Of a stretch of DNA of 64,000 nt, positions 7,260 to 23,984 are shown in pieces. The notes under the pieces are model-generated. The model had not been told where the DNA came from. It searched no databases and was given only the letters and a program-made list of their open reading frames with translations. Positions within the stretch are counted from its first letter, which is position 1. The number at the start of each line of letters is the position of its first letter. The stretch spans positions 1 through 64,000 of the forward strand of contig JAFGEW010000016.1 in NCBI GenBank assembly GCA_016931415.1, given 5' to 3'. Origin of the DNA: Verrucomicrobiota bacterium (GTDB lineage: Bacteria; Auribacterota; JABMQX01; JAFGEW01). A program made the position numbers and the translations under genes.

Positions 7260-10220
7260 ATGAAGCTCACCACTCTGACTATCCTGATCGCTGCAGCCGT
7301 CCTTGCCCCGCTCTCGGTCTGCGCCACAGTGCAGACCGAAGCCAAGGCACCCGGTGGGGGCATGGAAACGCTCACGCTCAAGAACCCCGAGGGGCTGTTC
7401 TTCGACTCGAAGGACCGGCTTCTCGTGGCCGATACGGGCAACAACCGCATTCTGGTATTCTCGCCGCAGCTTGCGCTGATCGGCACGATCGGCCAAGAAG
7501 GCCAGGGTGAAGGCCAATTCCGGCAGCCGGCGGACGTGGCCGTCGATTCGAGGGGCCGCATCATCGTGGCCGACGCCGGCAACAACCGTATCGTTGTTCT
7601 CGATGTCAACGGGCGGTTCGTCAGCACGTTCGGCTCAGCCGGGAAAGAGGACGGCCAGTTCAACCGCCCGTCCAACGTCACCGTCGACGAGCGAGATAAC
7701 ATTATCGTCACCGACCGGTTCAACTTCCGGCTCCAGGTCTTCGACCGCAACGGCACACACCTCTTCACGCTCGCCAACCGCGAGGGCGAGAAGAACGCCG
7801 AGCGCATCGCGCTCGAGAAACAGTGGGCCATCGAGCGCGAGCCAAACAAGCGCCCCGAGGAGATCGAGGTCAACCCGAAGTGGGAGTCCACCGATACGGG
7901 CCAGTTCAACGAGCCGGGCGGCACATGGTATGACGCGAAGGCCAAGGAGCTCTGGCTCGCCAACGGCTGGAACTGCCGCTACGAGCGCTTCGACTACGAT
8001 TCGCGCACGGGCGAGATCCGCCGCAAGACGAACGAGGCAATTGACGGCATCGTCTGGGGACCGTGGATCACGCGCAACTGCACCGGCACGCCCGACGGGC
8101 GTCTCATCGGCCTGCAGACAGCGTGGGGCGGGCTCCAGGTCTACAGCAACCGGAGCCGGCTCACGTCGCTCTCGCAGATGGACCGCGAGGTGCACGGCGG
8201 CTCGTACGGCGAGATGAAGGACGTCCACGACCTCGCCGTCAACTCGGCGGGCGAGATTGCCGTGGCCGATTCCGCCAACAGCCGCATCGTGATCTTCAAC
8301 AAGGACTTCACGATGCCGCCCAGCCCGGGTGTGGACTGGCTGTCGGCCGACGGCGGCAAGATCACGTGGCGCACGGGCAAGCCGTGCCCGACCCAGCTCG
8401 TGCTGCGCTACGGCTTGTATCCCGAGCGCACGCCGGGCCGCGAGAACCCGTGGACCGACGGCAAGGACGAAGTCAGGCTGATGCCCGTCAGCGCGCGCCC
8501 CGTCATCGAGCACGAGGCGGTGCTGAGCGGGCTCCGGCCGGCGGCGCGCTACTACTACAAGGTCGCTATCCCCGAAATGAAGACGATCCCCGGCGCCGGC
8601 TGGTCGCGCGAGTATGCGATCACCACGCACGCCAGGGAGGGCGAGACGGAGTACCTCGGGTTCACGCTCAAGACGCTGCTGCTGCCCAACGTCGTCAATG
8701 TCGAGTCGGTCCGGGCCGACACCGAGTTCCCCGAGAAGATGAGCGCGTCGGACATCGAACGCTACTACAAGGCGCAGTGGCGTCAGACCGTGCTCTTCTA
8801 CTGGATCAACTCGCACATGAAGTACTGGATCGACCATGACGTGTACGTTGACGAGACGATGTACCGATCGGGCGACATGAACAAGGGCCGGTTCAAGGAC
8901 GATGCCGAGCGCGAACGGTACGCCTCGCTGCCCGAGCCGAACCATGGGGCCTCGTTTGACCGCCTGATCGGCGAGGCCGGCAATGAGAACAAGGTCTACT
9001 TCGGCCAGATGCTCTGCACGTGCATCGTGGACTGGCAAGAAGGAGGCAAGACGTGGGCCTTCCGCGGCTCGGGCGGAGGCACCTACGGCATCGAGTGGCC
9101 GACGCCCGGCCGCACCGATTACCTCGGCGGCAGCGACGTCGCCTGGCTCATGTGCCACGAGTACAAGCACCAGGTCGAATCGAACTACGGCGTGAGCGGG
9201 CTCGACAAGCCGGAGGACCGGATGTGGTTCTGCCATTTCTCGCCCGTCTTTCCCGGCTGGGATCAGGCGTCCTCCGACGACCACGGCGAGCACTGGGACG
9301 GCATTGCCTGGCAACTGCGCCATCACAAACGGGACTCGTACCTGCGCGCCATGTACAGCAACGTCTACACCGCTGTTGACGCCGACGGCGACGGTATCCC
9401 GGACAACGATCCCCGCGTCCCGCTCGACGAGAGACGCCTCGGCTCGAACCCCCAGAGCCCGGACACAGACAGCGACGGGCTGGCGGACATGGACGAGCTG
9501 CTCGCCAGCACGTGGGTACGCGCCATGCTGACCGACGTACGCAGCCGCGTCGAGGTCGACTACATCCGCCCGAACCTCAACAGCCCCGACAGCGACGGTG
9601 ACGGGCTCACCGACGGGATCGACAAGTACCCGATCCACCCGTACGCCACCGAGATCACAAAGGGCACGGCGACCGTCGACGGTATGCTCGACGAATGGAC
9701 CGGCAAGCCGCAGATCGCGTTCAGCGCCGAGGGCGTCACGATCGAAGTCTGGTCGCGCTGGAACAACACGAACACCTCGCCGGAACAAGAACCCGACGTC
9801 AACGACGCACTCTTCTATGCCGTGCGCGTGACGGGGCTGTGGACGAACCTGAGCTTCGTGGTCGACCTCAAGGCCGACGGATTCTACTCCGGCAACGACA
9901 ATCTCTACGTCGAGATCGCCCCGAACGCGGACAACGGCCCGACGCTACGAAATGCCCGGATGCACATGTGCGATCTCGGCCGGTGGCCATGGTTCGATGA
10001 CCAGCACGTGTACCTTCGCCCCGACGAGCTTCGCTTCGCTTCATCGGTCAAGGACGGTCAACAGGTCTTCGAGCTGGCTGTCCCGAGACGCGATATCCTG
10101 GGCTTGTACCTGAAGCGCGGTGAGGAGATCGGCCTGATGCTCTACATCGGCCTGCCCGGCAAAGGCCCGATCTCCGTCTTCGAGCCTTACCAGATCTTCG
10201 ACAGCACGCTGGTGGAATAG
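7260..10220 (+). CDS. Large secreted NHL-repeat protein with HEXXH, thrombospondin-type Ca repeats and CBM9-like domain
   Basis: The ATG at 7260 follows GAGGAAAGGG and opens a signal peptide (residues 1-22), giving 986 residues. In order: NHL beta-propeller repeats at about 35-200 and again near 320 (VADTGNNRI, VADAGNNRIVVLD); a fibronectin-III-like domain near 350-450; a region with CHEYKHQVE near 640, an HEXXH motif suggesting a zinc peptidase; two Asp-rich calcium repeats (DADGDGIPDND, DTDSDGLADMD, DSDGDGLTDGID) near 700-800; and a C-terminal beta domain beginning with GTATVDGMLDEW, like family-9 carbohydrate-binding modules. An extracellular enzyme or adhesin acting on polysaccharide or protein is inferred; the enzymatic role is unproven. 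Confidence 0.75.
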   Translation: MKLTTLTILIAAAVLAPLSVCATVQTEAKAPGGGMETLTLKNPEGLFFDSKDRLLVADTGNNRILVFSPQLALIGTIGQEGQGEGQFRQPADVAVDSRGRIIVADAGNNRIVVLDVNGRFVSTFGSAGKEDGQFNRPSNVTVDERDNIIVTDRFNFRLQVFDRNGTHLFTLANREGEKNAERIALEKQWAIEREPNKRPEEIEVNPKWESTDTGQFNEPGGTWYDAKAKELWLANGWNCRYERFDYDSRTGEIRRKTNEAIDGIVWGPWITRNCTGTPDGRLIGLQTAWGGLQVYSNRSRLTSLSQMDREVHGGSYGEMKDVHDLAVNSAGEIAVADSANSRIVIFNKDFTMPPSPGVDWLSADGGKITWRTGKPCPTQLVLRYGLYPERTPGRENPWTDGKDEVRLMPVSARPVIEHEAVLSGLRPAARYYYKVAIPEMKTIPGAGWSREYAITTHAREGETEYLGFTLKTLLLPNVVNVESVRADTEFPEKMSASDIERYYKAQWRQTVLFYWINSHMKYWIDHDVYVDETMYRSGDMNKGRFKDDAERERYASLPEPNHGASFDRLIGEAGNENKVYFGQMLCTCIVDWQEGGKTWAFRGSGGGTYGIEWPTPGRTDYLGGSDVAWLMCHEYKHQVESNYGVSGLDKPEDRMWFCHFSPVFPGWDQASSDDHGEHWDGIAWQLRHHKRDSYLRAMYSNVYTAVDADGDGIPDNDPRVPLDERRLGSNPQSPDTDSDGLADMDELLASTWVRAMLTDVRSRVEVDYIRPNLNSPDSDGDGLTDGIDKYPIHPYATEITKGTATVDGMLDEWTGKPQIAFSAEGVTIEVWSRWNNTNTSPEQEPDVNDALFYAVRVTGLWTNLSFVVDLKADGFYSGNDNLYVEIAPNADNGPTLRNARMHMCDLGRWPWFDDQHVYLRPDELRFASSVKDGQQVFELAVPRRDILGLYLKRGEEIGLMLYIGLPGKGPISVFEPYQIFDSTLVE

Positions 10221-10378
10221 CCATCAGGCAGTCGCACACAGCGGGCCGCCGGTGCCGGAGCGGCCCTGGAGACGTCTGAGCGAAACGACGCTGCAGCGCG
10301 GAGCCTGCGTGACGGCATTGCCTGTCCCTGTACCGCGCCGGCGCCAAAGCGCGCCCGGGGGCGGCATGCGGTTTTCCC

Positions 10379-10406
10379 TTGAACACCGGATGCCGGCCGG
10401 TAAGAT
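10379..10406 (+). promoter_or_regulatory. Putative sigma-70 promoter of zinc-ribbon gene
   Basis: TTGAAC, 16 bases, TAAGAT lies in the 225-base gap after the NHL gene, about 40 bases before the ATG at 10446. I see nothing else in this gap. Confidence 0.5.
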
Positions 10407-10445
10407 GGTTGCCTGGACGACAACTCAAACGAGGACCATGCGGCG

Positions 10446-11816
10446 ATGCCTGACGAGACCAATGAACCGGGCGATCTCGTAACCTGTCCGAGCTGCGGCA
10501 AGATCTGGCCGAAGGGCACGAAGTTCTGCACCCTGTGCGGCACGTGGATCGAGACGGGCCAAGTCCTCGATCCGACGGTCCCGCCCAAGCCGGCCCCGCC
10601 TGCCCAGCCTGCGATTGGGGGCAGCCCACCTGGAATCGGGCCCAGCCAGGGCGGTGTGCCGCCCCAGGCGCCGCGCTTCAGGCCGGGCGCTATACCGTCG
10701 CCGCCGCCAGGGGGAGGATTGTCACAGTCCACCTTGGGTCCAGGCCCCGTCTCACCGGCCGGGCCACCGCCTGGAGGCATGCCGGGTCAGCCGCCCCCGC
10801 CGCCACAAGGCATGGCCGGCCCGCCCGAGGCCGAGGCACCCAAGAAGAAGTACTCGTTCTTGACGGAGTCCCGCCGCGAAGAGCACGTGCCCCAGGGACC
10901 GATGTTCATCCCGAAACGGGAGGAGAAGAAGAAGAAGCGCGTCGGCATCAGGCAGATCATCATCGTCGTCATCTGCATGCTCGCGATCGCTTACGCGGTC
11001 ATCAGCATGGCCTTCAAGCCGCTCCACGGCTATCTGATGGGCACCGTGTTCGAGTTCGCCGGCAAGCCTGAGCAGGCCATGAAGTACTACAGGAAGGCCG
11101 CCGGCAGTGACGGGATGTGGTCCGAGAAGGCCTCCGCGGCAATGACCAGGATCGGCAAGGGCGTCGTCAAGCGCCACGTCGAGACGCAGTTCGGCGGCAA
11201 CTGGACGGCGAAGACCAAGATCACGATTCAGGGACGCACCACGCCCATCCAGCTCAAGTCGGACCTCGCCTACAGAGCACCTGGCTTCATCGCGGAGCGA
11301 ATCCGCCGGACGGAACCCGACGCACCTGCCGGCCAGCGCTTGCTCAACGACCAGCTCTACGGTGTACAGTTTGGCACTGGGTTCAGCGAAGGTCCCATTT
11401 CGATCGAGGCGTTCAGCGAACGGATCGAGCAACGAGCCGGGCTGAAGATGAGCGAGCTGTTCGATAAAGCCAACACCGACCGAGTGGTCCAGGTGCTGTT
11501 CGACGATCTGGGGATGAAGCTCGATGAGGTCATCGGCGAAGGGCCGAACAAGACCTATCAGTTCTCCATCGACGTCACCGACGACGTGGATCGCCTCCGC
11601 AAGCTCGAAGCGGTCATGACGCCGTTCTTCCCTTGGGGCGAGTGGCGACTCCGGTCCAGACAGAGGGACATTGTCCGGGTCGAACTGAACTTCCTCGAGA
11701 AGGAGGGGCTCCTCGAGGAGGTCTGCTACTATGACGCCAACGGTGGCATCGTGGCCCAGCAGGTGTTCGAGGACCTCAACCCCGGCGCCACGGTCGACGA
11801 CAGTCTGTTCCGGTAG
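10446..11816 (+). CDS. Zinc-ribbon, proline-rich, single-pass membrane protein
   Basis: The function of this 456-residue protein is unknown. Residues about 13-34 form a zinc ribbon (CPSCG then CTLCG). A proline/glycine-rich, low-complexity linker follows to about residue 125, then a basic stretch (KREEKKKKR) and one transmembrane helix (IIIVVICMLAIAYAVISM) near residues 180-197. The remaining roughly 255 residues would be outside the cytoplasm and start with a short TPR-like segment (AGKPEQAMKYYRKAAG). The architecture suits sensing or scaffolding at the membrane. The stop lies 5 bases from the convergent nagB stop. Confidence 0.75.
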   Translation: MPDETNEPGDLVTCPSCGKIWPKGTKFCTLCGTWIETGQVLDPTVPPKPAPPAQPAIGGSPPGIGPSQGGVPPQAPRFRPGAIPSPPPGGGLSQSTLGPGPVSPAGPPPGGMPGQPPPPPQGMAGPPEAEAPKKKYSFLTESRREEHVPQGPMFIPKREEKKKKRVGIRQIIIVVICMLAIAYAVISMAFKPLHGYLMGTVFEFAGKPEQAMKYYRKAAGSDGMWSEKASAAMTRIGKGVVKRHVETQFGGNWTAKTKITIQGRTTPIQLKSDLAYRAPGFIAERIRRTEPDAPAGQRLLNDQLYGVQFGTGFSEGPISIEAFSERIEQRAGLKMSELFDKANTDRVVQVLFDDLGMKLDEVIGEGPNKTYQFSIDVTDDVDRLRKLEAVMTPFFPWGEWRLRSRQRDIVRVELNFLEKEGLLEEVCYYDANGGIVAQQVFEDLNPGATVDDSLFR

Positions 11817-16209: not shown

Positions 16210-16800
16210 GTGGCCCAGCGGGACATCGGCTGTGAGGGCTGCGGCGCTGTGCTGCCGATGACGATCAGCAGCTTCAGCACCGACACGCCAAACGTCTGGC
16301 ACCCGGGCAAGAGGTGCCCGATGTGCGGGTCTGAGAAGTTCTATCCAGTCATCCCGATTACGGACACCGACCGGGCTCAGGAACAGGAGGTTTCACTCAA
16401 GCGCAGGCTGCTCACGAACCCGTGGACGGGCATCGCGGCGCTTGGCCTTACTATCCTCGTGGTGCTCGTGGTCGTGCTCTGGCCGCGTCACAGCGGGGAC
16501 CGGGGCGCGAAGGTTCTGTTCTTCTGCAGCAACTGCCAGGAAGTGTTCTTCGCCAAAAGCGCCTCGATGCCGCCCGTGAAGTGCCCCAAGTGCGGCGAGC
16601 GCGCCGGCTACCGCGCGGCAAAGTGCCTCAAGTGCAGCCTTGTCTTCTCATACGGCGAGAAGCAGTGCCCGTACTGCAAAGAGACGAAGAAACCCCTCGT
16701 GCTCGAGACCCTCGACCAGGTCGACGCAGCCAAAACGGCACATCGGGCTTACGTCAAGCGTCAGCAGGAGATGGAACAGGAAGATGAATACGAGCAGTAG
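16210..16800 (+). CDS. Double zinc-ribbon single-pass membrane protein
   Basis: This 196-residue protein has an N-terminal zinc ribbon (CEGCG ... CPMCG), one transmembrane helix near residues 75-93 ([17 protein letters not shown]), then further CXXC pairs (CSNC, CPKCG, CLKCS, CPYCK) forming one or two ribbons on the other side of the membrane, and a charged C-terminal tail. GTG at 16210 is preceded by GGGAGG at 9-base spacing. The function is unknown. Its last 17 bases overlap the start of the next pseudopilin gene, so the two are translationally linked and may act together. Confidence 0.78.
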
Positions 16801-17365
16801 GCCCATCGCCCGCGCACGTGGCTTCACGCTGATCGAGCTGCTTGTCGTCATTGCCATCATCAGCACACTGGCGGCAATGCTCATGCCGGCTCTGGGAAGC
16901 GCCCGCGAGCAAGCCCGGCGCGCCGCGTGCAAGAGCAATCTGAGACAGATCGGACTAGGGCTGTTCATGTACTCCATGGACTGGGAAGGCCGCTACCCGC
17001 CGATAAGCAGCCACCAAGGCACGTTGCATGACCTCGATCTCATCTACAGAGTCGGGCAGATCGACAACATCAGGGTCTTCCAGTGTCCCTCAGATGTGGC
17101 GAAGGACCCGCCGACGACCGACAGCAGCTTCGGCTATCTTGGAGGGCTCTCCGACCTGATGGTGCAGACCACGGAGTGGCCGGTGGTGGCCGATGACGGT
17201 GTTGGGGAGCGCCTGAGCCCGACGCAGGAGTACTCTAACCACACCGAGGGGGGCGACGTCTTCTTCATGGATAGCCATGTGGAATGGGTCAACCGCTCCA
17301 AGTGGCCCAGAGTCCTGTCGAGTGATCCGGCAACGGCGATCTATTACCCGTTCAACCTGAACTGA
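16784..17365 (+). CDS. Pseudopilin (DUF1559-type)
   Basis: The 193-residue protein has the prepilin leader RARG followed by [16 protein letters not shown] and would be processed by prepilin peptidase. [18 protein letters not shown] is the segment that usually follows the helix in this family. [14 protein letters not shown] is a version of the C-terminal H-X9-DG-type motif seen in PVC pseudopilins. The start at 16784 overlaps the preceding zinc-ribbon gene by 17 bases and is preceded by AGGAAG at short spacing. A role in a pseudopilus or surface fibre is inferred from the family. Confidence 0.85.
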
Positions 17366-18121: not shown

Positions 18122-19867
18122 TCATTCAAGATCCCTTGCGCAACGCATTCCGCCGTTAATATCCGAGGCGTGGGGTGGGAAACCGCTGCGGAAGGCACAG
18201 CGCATCACATAGGCGTAGTAGCACCAGGCGCCGCCACGGATGGCCTTCAGGCCGCCAGCCGAGTCTGTGCAGACGGGGTCCTCGACGCCCGGGGCCAGGC
18301 TCTTGTAGAACGCCTCATCGTACCAATCTTCGCACCATTCCCAGACGTTGCCGGCCATCTCGAATAGCTCGTAGCGATTGGGCGGGAACGACTTGACCGG
18401 CACCGTGCCCAGGCTCGAGTGGAAGTGCGCACGATCGGCGTCGGGGAGATCGCCCCAAGGGAACTCGCGCTGCTCGAGCCCGCCGCGGGCGGCGAACTCC
18501 CATTCGGCCTCAGTCGGCAGGCGGCAGCCGCGCCACTCGGCATAGGCCCGGGCGGCGTACCAGCTCACGAAGACGACGGGGTGGTCGCGCAACTCGGGAG
18601 GATACGTGTTGTAGCTCCAAAGCGCGAGGTAGTCGCGGTCGGTACGAGCGCGGTCGGCCAACGCACGGCGCCACTCGGGCCGCGCCTGGAGGAATTCGAA
18701 GAACTGCGCGTTCGTCACGGGCGCCTGGTCGAGGTAGAAGGGCTTGACCTTTACGGTATGAACGGGCCGTTCGTCCTCGTCGCCGGTTTCGCCGCCCATC
18801 TTGAACGTGCCGCCCGGCACGAGCACCATGCCGGCCGGCGGGGGGCGGCGTGTCGGCGGCACAGGCAACGGAGTCCCGATTTCGACGGGGCGTGTGGACT
18901 CCGCGGCTGCACCCGTGTGCCGTCTGTCGTTCGTCTCGGCAAGGGCTGCCGCGTTCGCCGTGGACGACTCGCCCCAGACCTGGCGACCGCCGAGCCGGTC
19001 GATGTCGAGCAGCACCTCCGACGCCGACTGGTAGCGTTCGGCAGGGTCGGCGGCGAGCAGCTTGGCGATAATCTCGTCGACAGCCTGTGGCAACTGGGGA
19101 TTGGCGGCCGCCGGCATGCGGAACAGCCCGACAGGCAACCGCCCGGTGAGCATCTCGTAGAACACGACGCCGAGCGAGTAGAGGTCGGAGCGCGCGTCGT
19201 CGCCTGTGCCGGCGAGCCGCTCGGGCGCGACGTAGTACATCGTGCCGAAGCGGTCCTTCGTCACCGTGTAATCGGCGCGTTCCTTGAGGCGCGCGATGCC
19301 GAAGTCGGCGATCTTGACTTGGCCGTCCTGGCTCAAGAGCACGTTCTCGGGCTTGAGATCGCGGTGCAGCGTGTGGCGATGCGCGTAGCGCAGACCCGAG
19401 CAGATCTGGCGAATGATGTAGACCGTGTCCGTGAGGTGCTCGGGACGATCGACAGCGTGGGCGTGCGCGCGGATCCACTCGCGCAGCGAGATGCCATCGA
19501 CGAACTCCATCGTGATGTACTTGACGCCGCCGGCCTCGCCGACGTCGTTGATGCGGATGATGCTGTCGTGATTGAGGCGTCGGGCGATGCGCGCCTCCTC
19601 GAAGAAACGCCGGGCGAGCGTCTCGCTCGCCAGCAGCGCCGGGCTCATCATCTTGACCGCCACCGGCTCGCCGAGCAGCAGGTCGTCGGCGCGAAACACG
19701 ACACCCATGCCCCCTTGGCCAAGTCGAGCGCACAGCACGTAGCGGTCGGACACCGTGTCACCCAGGTCGAACGGCTGAGCGGCCGGACGCCCCTCGACGA
19801 ACGTCGTCGCGTCGTTGAGCGGATCGCGCGCCTCGCGCGCTGCGCTGCCGGGTGCTCTGGGGTTCAC
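18122..19867 (-). CDS. Ser/Thr protein kinase fused to FGE-sulfatase-like domain
   Basis: The 581-residue protein has a Hanks-type kinase at about 40-305: glycine loop GQGGMG, VAVKMM lysine, HRDLKPEN catalytic loop, DFG and APE, all present, so it should be active. After a Pro-rich linker, residues about 350-580 form an FGE/SUMF1-like domain: MVLVPGGTFKMGG, RLPTEAEWEFAARGG, GNVWEWCEDWY and IRGGAWC. Only one cysteine is present where sulfatase-modifying FGE has two, so formylglycine synthesis is doubtful; binding or regulation is more likely. No transmembrane helix is visible. The GTG start overlaps the FHA gene stop by 4 bases, implying coupled translation. Confidence 0.9.
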   Translation of the reverse strand: MNPRAPGSAAREARDPLNDATTFVEGRPAAQPFDLGDTVSDRYVLCARLGQGGMGVVFRADDLLLGEPVAVKMMSPALLASETLARRFFEEARIARRLNHDSIIRINDVGEAGGVKYITMEFVDGISLREWIRAHAHAVDRPEHLTDTVYIIRQICSGLRYAHRHTLHRDLKPENVLLSQDGQVKIADFGIARLKERADYTVTKDRFGTMYYVAPERLAGTGDDARSDLYSLGVVFYEMLTGRLPVGLFRMPAAANPQLPQAVDEIIAKLLAADPAERYQSASEVLLDIDRLGGRQVWGESSTANAAALAETNDRRHTGAAAESTRPVEIGTPLPVPPTRRPPPAGMVLVPGGTFKMGGETGDEDERPVHTVKVKPFYLDQAPVTNAQFFEFLQARPEWRRALADRARTDRDYLALWSYNTYPPELRDHPVVFVSWYAARAYAEWRGCRLPTEAEWEFAARGGLEQREFPWGDLPDADRAHFHSSLGTVPVKSFPPNRYELFEMAGNVWEWCEDWYDEAFYKSLAPGVEDPVCTDSAGGLKAIRGGAWCYYAYVMRCAFRSGFPPHASDINGGMRCARDLE

Positions 19868-21324
19868 GTATCGCCGTCTCCGAACTGCTGCGTGAAAGGC
19901 TCGAAGGCTACAGTTGTCCGGCCAAGCGTGATGTGATCACTGTGCTGGAGCAAAGCCGTCTCATCGGCGTGGAGGCGTCGTTCGTTGAGCCAGGTGCCCT
20001 CGTCGCTCCCGAGATCCTCGATGAAGAAGAGCCCGCCCTTGGCGATGAGACGGGCATGCACAGGCGCAACGCCGGGCTGCGCGATCAGCACGGCGGCATC
20101 CGGGGAGGCGCCAACCGTGACGTGCCGCCGGACGATCACGTATTGCTCGCGGGCCGCCGCGTCGTCGGAGCGCGAGAGCACGACGCCGAGCACCTGCTCG
20201 GCACCGGGCACACGGAGCTCGGTCAGTTCGATCTCGGGCGGCCGGCCCGAGCCGCGGTTGGTGCTGAACGCCGGCCAGCGCAGATGATCCTGGCCACGAA
20301 CAATGCGCGCGCTGAGGTCGAACAAGCCCGCGACGTCGAGCGGCTCGCCTTCGTCGAGCGGCCCACTCGACTCGATAACAACACGCCCGTCGCGCCGGCC
20401 TAGCCGGGCCACCCGTACGGCATCGGCCGACACTTCGACTCGGAACGCATACCGGTGGATGCGGCGCGAGAGCTCGCGCGTCGCCGTGGTTTCCGGCATG
20501 AGCCGGAGCACGACGTTGTTGTGGTCGCGCGTATTCGGATCGACCAGGGCCGAGCGCCCGAGAGCCAACGAGTCCTTTGCGAACAGGGCCACGGTACGCA
20601 CGTCGTCGGTGTCGAGCCAGCGAAAGGCCGCACTCTCGACAAACGATACTCCCCGCTCCCCCGGCGGAAGAACGACGTGCTTCAGCACAGGGCGCACCTC
20701 GCGCCGCTCGCACTCGACGAGGCGGATGGGCACCCAGGCGGCCCGACGACGCGGGTGCATGACGCCGCGCGGCCGGGGCCGCTTCTGCGTGAACACGTTC
20801 TCGAAATCCCCTACGACGTCGCTGTTCTCCACGATGAACTGGAGCGTGGTCTCCTCGGTGCGCGCCGGGTTGATGGTCACAGTGAACTCGCCTGTGGAGA
20901 CAGTGAAGACCTGCGCAGCATCGAGCCCCTTAACGCGCACGCGGCACACGGCCTCGCCGTGCCGCATCGGCACAACTGAGAACCGCACGGGTACGTGACG
21001 GCCGGCTGCCACGTCGCGCACGAGGCTGCGCAGCGGCGCACCGGCCACAGGCGTCTCTATTTCGACCATCGCCATACTCATCGCGGCGGTTCCCCTGTTC
21101 GTCAACCGGAGCTCGAGCACGCCGGCGGCGCCCTGCTGGAGCACGCGCGCGGCGTCGATCTCGATCCGGAACGGTCCGCTCGCCGTGTTTTCGTCGAGAA
21201 CGAGCGATTGATCCGGCAACGGTGACATCACCGGGGCGCCGCAGTGCTCGCAGTAACGCGCACCCGCAGCATCACGCCCGCACGCCGGGCACTCGGTAAC
21301 AAGTCTGTGGCCACGCGCTTCCAT
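19864..21324 (-). CDS. Zinc-ribbon and FHA-domain protein
   Basis: This 486-residue protein starts with a zinc ribbon (CPACG ... CEHCG, residues 12-29). A beta-rich Ig-like region follows at about 50-155, then a long region I do not recognise. The C-terminal 100 residues are an FHA domain (VTVGASPDA, APVHARL, IEDLGSDEGTWLNERRL, ITLGRT), which binds phosphothreonine. The likely partner is the kinase encoded next, which its stop overlaps by 4 bases. Its own ATG overlaps the upstream stop as TAATG. Soluble and cytoplasmic. Confidence 0.85.
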   Translation of the reverse strand: MEARGHRLVTECPACGRDAAGARYCEHCGAPVMSPLPDQSLVLDENTASGPFRIEIDAARVLQQGAAGVLELRLTNRGTAAMSMAMVEIETPVAGAPLRSLVRDVAAGRHVPVRFSVVPMRHGEAVCRVRVKGLDAAQVFTVSTGEFTVTINPARTEETTLQFIVENSDVVGDFENVFTQKRPRPRGVMHPRRRAAWVPIRLVECERREVRPVLKHVVLPPGERGVSFVESAAFRWLDTDDVRTVALFAKDSLALGRSALVDPNTRDHNNVVLRLMPETTATRELSRRIHRYAFRVEVSADAVRVARLGRRDGRVVIESSGPLDEGEPLDVAGLFDLSARIVRGQDHLRWPAFSTNRGSGRPPEIELTELRVPGAEQVLGVVLSRSDDAAAREQYVIVRRHVTVGASPDAAVLIAQPGVAPVHARLIAKGGLFFIEDLGSDEGTWLNERRLHADETALLQHSDHITLGRTTVAFEPFTQQFGDGDT

Positions 21325-22814
21325 TACTGCCCATGCTCCTGTTCGAGCTGTTCGGGCGGGGTGGAGGCGTTCGGTGTGCCCGCGACGCTCTCGCCGCTGA
21401 GGCCACTGGAGATCGCCGGCGCAATCGCCGCGTCGGCGCGATACCGTTCGGCGAGGGCAAGCGCCGCTTCGGGCGAGTTGGCCGCGACGAGCGCGAGCAG
21501 CTGTTCGGGTGACATCTTCGCCTGCTCCTGAAACCGCCGCAGTTCCACGAGGCGGTCCGCGCGCTCATCGTCAAGGATGGCGATGAGCGCCTCGGTCGTT
21601 GCACGTTGATACGCGTCGATGCGGCGCGCGTCGACCTCGACACGCCTGAGGCGGTCGCGGTGGCGGGCCTCGCGGATCTTCTCGAGCAGCTCGAGGCCTC
21701 GCTCGCGTTTGGCCCAGCGCAGCTCATCGAGCGCCTTGTGCTTGTCGAGTTCGGACGCGAACGTGATCGCGCCTCGCTCGATCTCGCGCTTCGCCTGTTC
21801 GAGGGCGACGCGCTCGCGATAGGCGCGCTTGAAGTCTTCGATCTCCTGTTCGCGCAGGAGGAGTTTGAGGCCGGCCTCGTGCTCCGCGTCGCGCACGAAG
21901 CGCTCGAACTCCTGCTCCGAGGAGAACCGTTCAATGCGATCGGCGCGCAGTTCGTCATGCACACGGCGGTAGACCTCGAGCGCACGCGTAAGCTGGAAGG
22001 CCTCGCCACGTTCTGCGCGCAGCCGCTCGTAGGCGTCACCGTAGAAGTCGATGCAGCGCAGCTCAACGAGGTCAAGACCGCTGCGTGCGCAGAGGCCGTC
22101 GAGTTGGACGCGCAGTTCGTCGTCGACCGCTTCGCGCAGGCCGGGCTTGGAGCAGAGCGCATCGAGCGTCTCGCCGCGGACAATATCGGCGACGACCGGC
22201 TGCCCGGCCTCGCACCAGAGCACGCGAACATCGTCGAGGAGCACGCGCCATCGTGCGCCGACCAGTTCGCGCCGGAATGCATCCGGCTCGACGAGGCGCA
22301 CGGTGACGAACGCCTTCACGGACACGAGCTGCTCGTCGGCCGTCCAGGCGTCTCGCAGGTCGAGCTCGACGGGCACCTCATCGGCCGAGACAAGCACAAC
22401 GTTTGTCGGGTCTTTCCGGCCAAGCGACGCTATCCGCTGCGGCAGACTCTCAATCGTGTGCCGTCCCGGGTCGAGCGCGCCGATGTACCGGTCGCCGCGG
22501 TAGACGAGCGCACGCGTGCCCGGCTCGACCACAAGCGACTTGCTCAGGACACCGGCCAGGTCGTCCACCTCGAGCACGACGGCGAACTCCTGCGGCTCGC
22601 GCGCCCAGCGGTTGTCGATAACAGTCGCCTTGCGGTGCCTTGTGAGCTCGGCGCCGCAGTGGCCGCAGAACTTCGCGCCGGTCGATGTATCGTGGCCGCA
22701 CCGGCCACAGCGCACCGCGCGCCCGGGCGCCGGCATGCCGCACTCCGGGCAGAAGGCGCCCGACTTGCGGACGCGCCCGCCGCAGTGCGGACACTCTGTG
22801 CTCAGGAAACCCAT
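21324..22814 (-). CDS. Tandem zinc-ribbon protein with SPFH-like and coiled-coil regions
   Basis: The first 65 residues of this 496-residue protein carry three CXXC pairs plus CGHCG, two zinc ribbons in tandem. Residues about 80-260 (VVEPGTRALVYRGDRYIGALDPGRHT, then a beta/alpha stretch) resemble SPFH/band-7-like domains of the soluble zinc-ribbon type. Residues 270-430 are strongly charged Glu/Arg-rich helices, likely a coiled coil that oligomerises. No membrane helix is seen. SPFH proteins build ring or cage assemblies. A scaffold for the FHA and kinase proteins is inferred from gene order and 1-base coupling to the FHA gene. Confidence 0.72.
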   Translation of the reverse strand: MGFLSTECPHCGGRVRKSGAFCPECGMPAPGRAVRCGRCGHDTSTGAKFCGHCGAELTRHRKATVIDNRWAREPQEFAVVLEVDDLAGVLSKSLVVEPGTRALVYRGDRYIGALDPGRHTIESLPQRIASLGRKDPTNVVLVSADEVPVELDLRDAWTADEQLVSVKAFVTVRLVEPDAFRRELVGARWRVLLDDVRVLWCEAGQPVVADIVRGETLDALCSKPGLREAVDDELRVQLDGLCARSGLDLVELRCIDFYGDAYERLRAERGEAFQLTRALEVYRRVHDELRADRIERFSSEQEFERFVRDAEHEAGLKLLLREQEIEDFKRAYRERVALEQAKREIERGAITFASELDKHKALDELRWAKRERGLELLEKIREARHRDRLRRVEVDARRIDAYQRATTEALIAILDDERADRLVELRRFQEQAKMSPEQLLALVAANSPEAALALAERYRADAAIAPAISSGLSGESVAGTPNASTPPEQLEQEHGQ

Positions 22815-22817
22815 CGG

Positions 22818-23984
22818 TCAGCGTCTCGATATGACCATGCCAAGATCATCGAATTGGTCGATCTCGTAGTCGTGCGTCGCGGCGAGTCGCTTGAGACAGC
22901 GTTGGGCGATCTCGCGATGGAACCCACCATTCTCGACGAGCACGTCGAGGCACACGCTCGCGTTCCCACCGACGGCGCTTCGGACAGACGCGGCGCATTG
23001 GGCGAGTGCCTCTTCGTCGCTCGACGGATTGACCAGATAGCCGATGTACCCATCGACCCTGTCGCAACAACCGGCGCCCGCGTCAACGAGTACAGGCCGG
23101 CGGTCCGAGCCCCGCAGGGATCCCGCCGTCACGGACGCCCGCTCTGTCCAGCCCGTCGGGGACCAGAGTGCGAGGACAACGTTCCGCCCGCGTCCGACTG
23201 CGGCTGCTGTGTCGGATGCGGCGCGGAGATCATCGACCGTGCACGGCCGGACGTCGAAGCCGAATCGAGTGTAGTCGTGTCGATGCAGAACGGGTAGGAA
23301 CACCACGTCGAGCAGGACGGCGCCGGGGCGCAGCCGTCGCCGCAACGCGATCGTCACCTCGAACGGGACAGGCGATCGGTCGTCGAGGGCCAGCCAGCCG
23401 TCGGCGGAGGGCTTGTGATGGATCACGACGATGAGCCCGTTGCGCGCGATCGGTCGTCCGTCCTCGCCGGGCCAAGACGAGAGCTCGTCAAGGCGGCCGG
23501 CCACGTTCGCAAGATACGACCCGGCAAGCGCGCGCAGTTCCTCGACCCCGACAACGAAACCGCCTTCGGCGCGGAGACGCTCGACCTGTGCCGAACGGTC
23601 GCCCGGCTTGACGTGGATGGGGCAGAGCTCGGCGCCGTCGCGCGCACACGCGCGGCAGATCGGCGCGGCGCACCCCGGCTCGGCGCATTCGCCGCCGATG
23701 GAGTAGTTGAGCACGAGGTCGCGTCCGCACCACACGCAGGGACGTTCGGCGCTGGCATCGCGTGCGCCGATGGAGGCGCGGCGCCTGTGGCCATTGGCTT
23801 GGAGCTCGCGCATGGTGGCCGTCTTGCGTTGTTCGAAGTAATGCTCGACGTCGTCCTGGGCGAGACGGTAGATGCGCCCGATTTTTGCCGCGGGCAGTTC
23901 GCCGTTCTGGATCAGGCGGTAGACGGTCTTGTAGTCCACCGCCAGCAGGTCGGCCGCCGCTTGGATATCGATGATTCTGCTCAC
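22818..23984 (-). CDS. Excisionase-type HTH protein with RING/B-box-like zinc cluster
   Basis: Translated from GTG at 23984, this 388-residue protein opens with a MerR/excisionase-like winged HTH (AADLLAVDYKTVYRLIQNG ... IGRIYRL, residues 5-50). Residues about 85-127 hold eight possible zinc ligands spaced C-x2-C-x13-C-x4-C-x4-C-x2-C-x7-C-x2-H, like cross-brace fingers. The remaining 260 residues are unrecognised. No clear ribosome-binding site precedes the GTG, and upstream in-frame codons exist, so the start is uncertain. It leads the four-gene operon and could be its regulator. Confidence 0.65.
   Translation of the reverse strand: MSRIIDIQAAADLLAVDYKTVYRLIQNGELPAAKIGRIYRLAQDDVEHYFEQRKTATMRELQANGHRRRASIGARDASAERPCVWCGRDLVLNYSIGGECAEPGCAAPICRACARDGAELCPIHVKPGDRSAQVERLRAEGGFVVGVEELRALAGSYLANVAGRLDELSSWPGEDGRPIARNGLIVVIHHKPSADGWLALDDRSPVPFEVTIALRRRLRPGAVLLDVVFLPVLHRHDYTRFGFDVRPCTVDDLRAASDTAAAVGRGRNVVLALWSPTGWTERASVTAGSLRGSDRRPVLVDAGAGCCDRVDGYIGYLVNPSSDEEALAQCAASVRSAVGGNASVCLDVLVENGGFHREIAQRCLKRLAATHDYEIDQFDDLGMVISRR

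Follow-up and report, generated by a model that had tools for sequence, protein, structure and literature searches.

Layout of the operon

The window analysed here comprises the first 64,000 nucleotides of contig JAFGEW010000016.1 (contig C16 below; assembly GCA_016931415.1), which belongs to a bacterium deposited as Verrucomicrobiota. It contains four consecutive minus-strand open reading frames between positions 18122 and 23984, which an initial annotation had described as an operon for helix-turn-helix (HTH), SPFH-like, FHA and kinase proteins. The four genes are present as described, and we consider it likely, from sequence comparison, that they supply the adaptor, the scaffold and the regulators for a bacterial membrane-remodelling machine resembling the ESCRT-III/Vps4 pair of the endosomal sorting complex required for transport (ESCRT), with the core of this machine located on a second contig of the same genome (C61). 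The genes and their domains are the following:

22818..23984, minus strand: gene 1 (P0001), 388 amino acids, GTG start; HTH_17 domain, eight-ligand zinc finger, conserved 'S-x-T-G-W' module and C-terminal winged helix
23826..23969, minus strand: HTH_17 (excisionase/MerR-like) DNA-binding domain of gene 1; Pfam 48.9 bits, cut-off 27
23613..23738, minus strand: zinc finger of gene 1, C-x2-C ... C ... C ... C-x2-C ... C-x2-H; its eight ligands are all kept in the kinase fusion of Planctomycetes bacterium SM23_32
22824..23018, minus strand: C-terminal winged helix of gene 1; AlphaFold model with a predicted local distance difference test score (pLDDT) of 84-90, HHH-EE topology
21324..22814, minus strand: gene 2 (P0002), 496 amino acids; double zinc ribbon, SPFH/Band_7 domain and coiled coil
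22017..22532, minus strand: SPFH/Band_7 domain of gene 2; Pfam 25.1 bits, cut-off 23.6
19864..21324, minus strand: gene 3 (P0003), 486 amino acids; zinc ribbon, immunoglobulin (Ig)-like region and C-terminal FHA domain
19921..20121, minus strand: FHA domain of gene 3, recognised as a fold (Pfam FHA 52 bits) and devoid of the canonical phosphothreonine-binding residues
18122..19867, minus strand: gene 4 (P0004), 581 amino acids; Ser/Thr kinase and FGE-like domain (Pfam Pkinase and FGE-sulfatase)

Overlapping junctions had been assumed throughout, and indeed genes 2 and 3 share 1 nucleotide and genes 3 and 4 share 4 (GTGA), whereas a gap of 3 nucleotides (TGA-ccg-ATG) lies between genes 1 and 2. 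The flanking genes, which code for a cold-shock protein downstream and for a Gfo/Idh oxidoreductase and FlgN upstream, all lie on the opposite strand, and the operon therefore stands alone. Pfam confirmed the predicted domain content, with HTH_17 in gene 1, a double zinc ribbon and Band_7 in gene 2, FHA in gene 3, and Pkinase and FGE-sulfatase in gene 4. Zinc ribbons, expected in three of the partners, were found in gene 2 and in gene 3 (there as CxxC/CxxC, under the Pfam cut-off), but gene 1 carries a different, eight-ligand finger and gene 4 has none. Two features had escaped the initial annotation, the C-terminal winged helix of gene 1 and the Ig-like region of gene 3.

A linked core in SM23_32 and on a second contig

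When gene 2 was searched against 84,980 species genomes, one full-length relative emerged, in Planctomycetes bacterium SM23_32 (L029:7790-9412; 35% identity over residues 1-463; Pfam Band_7 28.9 bits). This zinc-ribbon SPFH protein is encoded within a cluster of about 13 kb (locus L029), together with an ECF (extracytoplasmic function) sigma factor, a kinase fusion, SnfB (small coiled-coil protein), VpsB (MIT-AAA ATPase), SnfA (Snf7-family protein), VpsA (second AAA ATPase), a transmembrane (TM) protein and two more zinc-ribbon proteins, of which one also has an FGE domain. The C-terminus of the kinase carries the gene 1 zinc finger together with the remainder of the gene 1 module. The sigma factor gene (L029:464-1138) overlaps the start of this zf-HC2-kinase-zinc finger fusion gene, and the two possibly constitute a sigma/anti-sigma switch over the ESCRT-like operon.

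In the window's genome (G000), homologues of VpsA and VpsB are located beside SnfA, SnfB and the TM protein on contig C61 (L042:3571-6261, 9144-11000), and SnfA is present there in a single copy. The arrangement on C61 is TM-SnfA-VpsA ... VpsB-SnfB and that of the window is wH-SPFH-FHA-kinase, wH being the winged-helix family of gene 1; the stretch of C61 that was read holds no winged-helix, SPFH, FHA or kinase gene, which is what the window carries. The operon had initially been taken for a self-standing four-gene system; it now appears as the accessory half of an ESCRT-III/Vps4-like cluster. The C61 core is interrupted between VpsA and VpsB by a glycosyltransferase-like and a WG-repeat-like gene, and just upstream of TM-SnfA-VpsA a set of related proteins that appear to be secreted is encoded in tandem (L041:4208-8471 and L042:613-2889).

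Recurrence in Planctomycetota

Gene 1 connects to the same kind of cluster, as its C-terminal 260 residues match the wH family of Planctomycetota ESCRT-III/Vps4-like operons (hhalign probability 97.9, E 4e-13; the sole match among the open reading frames scanned), a family that usually comes first in these operons. A wH profile built without gene 1 recovered gene 1 at 1e-6 and nothing else in the set of open reading frames. The Pfam Snf7 model missed the real SnfA in the window's phylum, which called for custom profiles, and those of SnfA and wH were searched in 392 Planctomycetota genomes and 44 genomes of that phylum (436 in total). SnfA was matched in 56 and wH in 50 of the Planctomycetota; both occur in 48 genomes (Fisher p ~1e-50, or 2.7e-39 without the genomes used in the profile), and are at most 8 kb apart on the same contig in 43 of these and on separate contigs in the other five. 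Two genomes have wH without a detected SnfA (G297:C506:3425-4225 and G300:C311:1592-2425), possibly reflecting fragmentary assemblies or a divergent system. Within the window's phylum each profile matched 1 of the 44 genomes, namely this one, and no relative of gene 1 or gene 2 was found there past shared HTH or zinc-ribbon motifs.

The gene 2 profile matches 22 of the 392 Planctomycetota genomes, with several of the weaker matches confined to the zinc ribbons, and the wider neighbourhoods of its matches hold SnfA, VpsA/B, kinase, SPFH, TM and wH genes jointly. Among viral contigs and plasmids no real relatives were detected; the viral match L028 is due to chance, and one search gave matches in the FHA region only. 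The initial annotation had suspected a real multi-protein system unnamed in databases, and the joint recurrence of the gene 1 and gene 2 families in many Planctomycetota bears this out. Co-occurrence beyond close relatives holds for these two families and is weaker for those of genes 3 and 4, and the exact four-gene order was seen in this genome only.

Forty-six SnfA loci, many of which end at contig ends, were compared for gene content. A VpsA/VpsB-type ATPase is present in 39 of them (one joint count, as both profiles cross-match), wH in 35 and the TM protein in 10, and the most frequent order is wH - small coiled coils - VpsB - SnfA - VpsA - SPFH - TM - kinase. The small coiled-coil proteins between wH and VpsB, SnfB and SnfC, number two per operon (L075:10449-11790, L074:14896-16443, L072:1963-3366). 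One subgroup of Planctomycetota (L152-L165) displays a looser layout, in which distances of up to 8 kb separate wH, VpsB and SnfA; VpsA, SPFH and kinase genes were not found in it, and most of its SnfA tails are without the full MIM1-like motif described below.

Identity of SnfA and of the ATPases

When compared with the PDB, the SnfA profile matched CHMP3 best (2e-6), followed by CHMP2A, yeast Snf7 and CHMP1B, and afterwards only marginal chance matches; PspA/Vipp1 was absent from both its PDB and its Pfam matches. The SnfA of SM23_32 exceeds the Pfam Snf7 cut-off (35.2 bits against 27.3), and that of the window's genome, taken alone, reaches 14 bits and stays under it. Judged by the generally known MIM1 consensus, 32 of 46 SnfA sequences end in a MIM1-like tail (D/E-xx-I/L-xxx-L-xx-V/I/L), compared with 3% of shuffled tails; the sequences are related, and these counts are not independent.

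VpsA and VpsB each possess a single AAA domain with intact Walker A/B motifs. The best natural PDB matches of their N-terminal profile are the MIT domains of VPS4/SKD1 (VPS4B), at 1e-3; the Pfam MIT model gave no match on either protein, and Vps4_C scored 14-15 bits, under its Pfam cut-off. VpsA is covered from end to end by the alignment with the CdvC profile (12-365 of 370), and this profile scores first for the VpsB of SM23_32. The PDB ranking of AAA proteins is dominated by two-domain p97 and does not separate Vps4 from Cdc48. In a survey of archaeal systems, Vps4 was recognised by an MIT domain or by ESCRT neighbours (PMC10936438), and our ATPases display both. Membership of VpsA and VpsB in the Vps4 clade is thus probable.

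Properties of the accessory proteins

The initial annotation had noted eight zinc ligands with RING/B-box-like spacing in gene 1. The ligands are real: they form invariant columns (C5 C8 C22 C27 C32 C35 C43 H46) between gene 1 and the SM23_32 fusion, and because all eight align in this homologue they are not due to chance. The likeness to known folds fared less well, as no Pfam RING, B-box or FYVE model exceeded its cut-off on gene 1 and the two-sequence AlphaFold model of the zinc region is weak, so that the cross-brace fold is putative. While the single-sequence model of gene 1 reached a pLDDT of 37, the two-sequence model is usable for the C-terminal winged helix alone (last 65 residues). 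Foldseek gave no match at E <= 0.001 for this winged helix; its neighbours are winged helices that include VPS25 (3htu) and also many DNA-binding ones, so that structure does not decide between an adaptor and a regulator. One relative of gene 1 carries a MerR HTH. Going by their families, gene 1 would act as an adaptor, gene 2 as a membrane scaffold and gene 4 in regulation of the membrane remodelling.

An intact kinase catalytic core in gene 4 (Hanks-type Ser/Thr, with G-loop, VAVK, HRD, DFG and APE motifs) agrees with the phospho-binding pair that had been proposed for the kinase and FHA proteins, but the FHA side of this pair is weakened by the loss of its phosphothreonine-binding residues. 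In an alignment with GarA, the FHA domain of gene 3 has GA instead of GR, A-x-x-H instead of S/R-x-H and EGT instead of NGT, which rules it out as a classical phosphothreonine reader. A protein of another genome (L066:8074-9792), encoded directly downstream of VpsA, has the same layout of zinc ribbon, Ig-like region and FHA domain; it is the best of 2849 open reading frames for the gene 3 Ig-like region, though weakly (E 0.009), and its FHA domain was detected separately. The FGE-like domain of gene 4 reads CYYAYV where FGE has CHDSYC, and the absence of the second active-site cysteine (CxxxxC) excludes a role as sulfatase-activating enzyme; the domain is probably a binding or structural module. 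About 7 kinase-domain loci are present in the 4.06 Mb of the window's genome.

Near the operon, on the plus strand, a small TM protein (16210-16800) has zinc-ribbon-like CxxC pairs to either side of one TM helix, and is followed by a DUF1559-type pseudopilin at 16640-17365.

A proposed machine and its alternatives

How such a machine could work is suggested by its relatives. The zinc-ribbon SPFH protein of gene 2 would oligomerise into a scaffold on the inner membrane and mark the site together with the TM protein, much as the SPFH protein YdjI serves PspA, a relative of ESCRT-III. Nucleation of SnfA polymers would fall to the winged-helix protein of gene 1, in the manner of the ESCRT-II and CdvB winged helices, and the N-terminal HTH of this protein may additionally sense or regulate expression. 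SnfA would then polymerise and remodel the membrane, until the MIT domains of VpsA and VpsB bind its C-terminal MIM1-like motif and disassemble the polymer with ATP. The kinase-FGE and zinc-ribbon/FHA proteins could tune the assembly via phosphorylation and protein docking.

Several points weigh against this interpretation. Its whole basis is computational, consisting of homology, co-occurrence, gene clustering and motif conservation. The two halves sit on separate contigs in this genome, which makes their physical link indirect, and the gene 1 zinc finger was found in one other family member only. A kinase is present in 14 and SPFH in 18 of the 46 SnfA loci, many of which are cut by contig ends, and an FHA domain in 3. 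As Planctomycetota possess many kinases, the kinase, whose count is one without random-locus control, is statistically the weakest link. The placement of the ATPases in the Vps4 clade follows profile scores rather than an AAA phylogeny, and VpsA scores slightly higher with CDC48, its best NCBIfam model, than with CdvC. SnfB and SnfC received no Pfam ESCRT-III assignment and have no detectable similarity to SnfA; they are possible divergent ESCRT-III subunits, but SnfB as a second ESCRT-III is unsupported, since its homology to SnfA could not be shown.

The CDC48 score, together with the unassigned coiled coils, the bona fide HTH_17 of gene 1 and the MerR HTH of its relative, would also suit a Cdc48-like unfoldase pathway acting on coiled-coil substrates, in which gene 1 is a plain MerR/winged-helix regulator and the whole forms a protein-quality or envelope-stress regulon. 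We regard this as unlikely, given that the natural PDB matches of SnfA are ESCRT-III proteins, that its tail is MIM1-like, and that the ATPases combine one AAA domain with MIT-like N-termini and carry both marks of Vps4 (PMC10936438).

Still less probable, in our estimation, is that the four genes form a self-standing signalling or anti-phage/conflict system and that the genes on C61 are unrelated housekeeping genes. Kinase, FHA, SPFH and HTH proteins are known in predicted conflict systems (PMC7159879), and PADLOC reported matches to a generic kinase (PD-T4-6) and to the HTH protein mad1. These matches are, however, limited to shared kinase, HTH and AAA folds, with no specific full-length match; MADS was matched by nothing more than the kinase fold and the small gene 1 HTH, below the curated cut-offs. 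The signalling or conflict role offered by the initial annotation likewise found no defence or conflict family match past such generic domains. Other genomes carry the same families in one operon with ESCRT-III/Vps4-like genes, and the presence of wH and SnfA is almost perfectly correlated, with wH lacking a detected SnfA twice in 436 genomes. Both the missing family matches and the ESCRT linkage led us to reject a free-standing defence system.

That C16 and C61 stem from different organisms binned together might be suggested by the assembly (134 contigs, estimated contamination 4.5%) and by the lack of these genes in relatives of the window's phylum. We hold it to be very improbable because both contigs (GC content 0.64-0.66) agree in GC and tetranucleotide profiles with nine others from this genome (r 0.95-0.97), not with Planctomycetota loci (r 0.09-0.84), and because SnfA is not duplicated and the gene sets of the two contigs are complementary.

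Relation to known systems and significance

Among the closest known counterparts of the proposed ESCRT-like machine are those of archaea, where ESCRT loci join Vps4, ESCRT-III, a winged-helix protein, and Ser/Thr kinase, FHA or zinc-ribbon SPFH proteins (PMC10936438). In common with the Main, Halo_FHA and Meth_adaptin clades described there, our system has an ESCRT-III-like protein, MIT-AAA ATPases of probable Vps4 type and, upstream, a winged-helix protein whose globular domain is unassigned, as well as a Ser/Thr kinase, an FHA protein, a zinc-ribbon SPFH-coiled-coil protein and Ig-like domains. Unlike them, it is bacterial, has two Vps4-like ATPases per locus, a kinase with an FGE-like domain and a gene 1 protein with an N-terminal HTH and an eight-ligand zinc finger; neither a PP2C phosphatase nor an adaptin appendage was detected in it. 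According to the same 2024 survey, bacteria have no ESCRT homologues apart from the distant PspA/Vipp1 (PMC10936438). The latter, together with the SPFH protein YdjI (cited in PMC10936438), resembles our system in pairing a polymer of the ESCRT-III superfamily with an SPFH partner that recruits it to the membrane, but SnfA matches CHMP/Snf7 in PDB and Pfam and is accompanied by MIT-AAA ATPases. Another study reports that VPS4-like genes were transferred from archaea to bacteria, a TPR/6TM gene having taken the place of Snf7, and that some bacterial operons hold Snf7 homologues and AAA ATPases (PMC11237479). MIT/Vps4-like AAA ATPases in bacteria are thus common to both accounts, whereas the main text searched describes neither a wH-SPFH-kinase-FHA operon nor a Planctomycetota system. 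No description of the present operon was found in open-access full text, a search that leaves most subscription papers and bioRxiv outside, and its novelty is provisional.

At the broadest level, a complete ESCRT machine may operate in Planctomycetota and in one or more further bacterial phyla. It would comprise Snf7-clade ESCRT-III bearing MIT-interacting tails, Vps4-like ATPases with MIT domains, a winged-helix adaptor of ESCRT-II type, SPFH as scaffold, and kinase/FHA as regulator; we hold the balance for this claim to be even. The combination of ESCRT-III and Vps4 is regarded as an archaeal-eukaryotic hallmark, and the elaborate internal membranes of Planctomycetota are a long-standing puzzle. 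If true, a complete bacterial machine would place the ESCRT-III/Vps4 pair outside the archaeal-eukaryotic lineage. The recurrence in bacteria of an operon that unites a Snf7-type subunit and MIT-ATPases with a winged-helix adaptor and SPFH/kinase/FHA components allows direct tests of how ESCRT arose and spread. On this reading, the odd four-gene set of the window becomes interpretable as half of a machine, and the operon is a tangible candidate for how Planctomycetota remodel their membranes.

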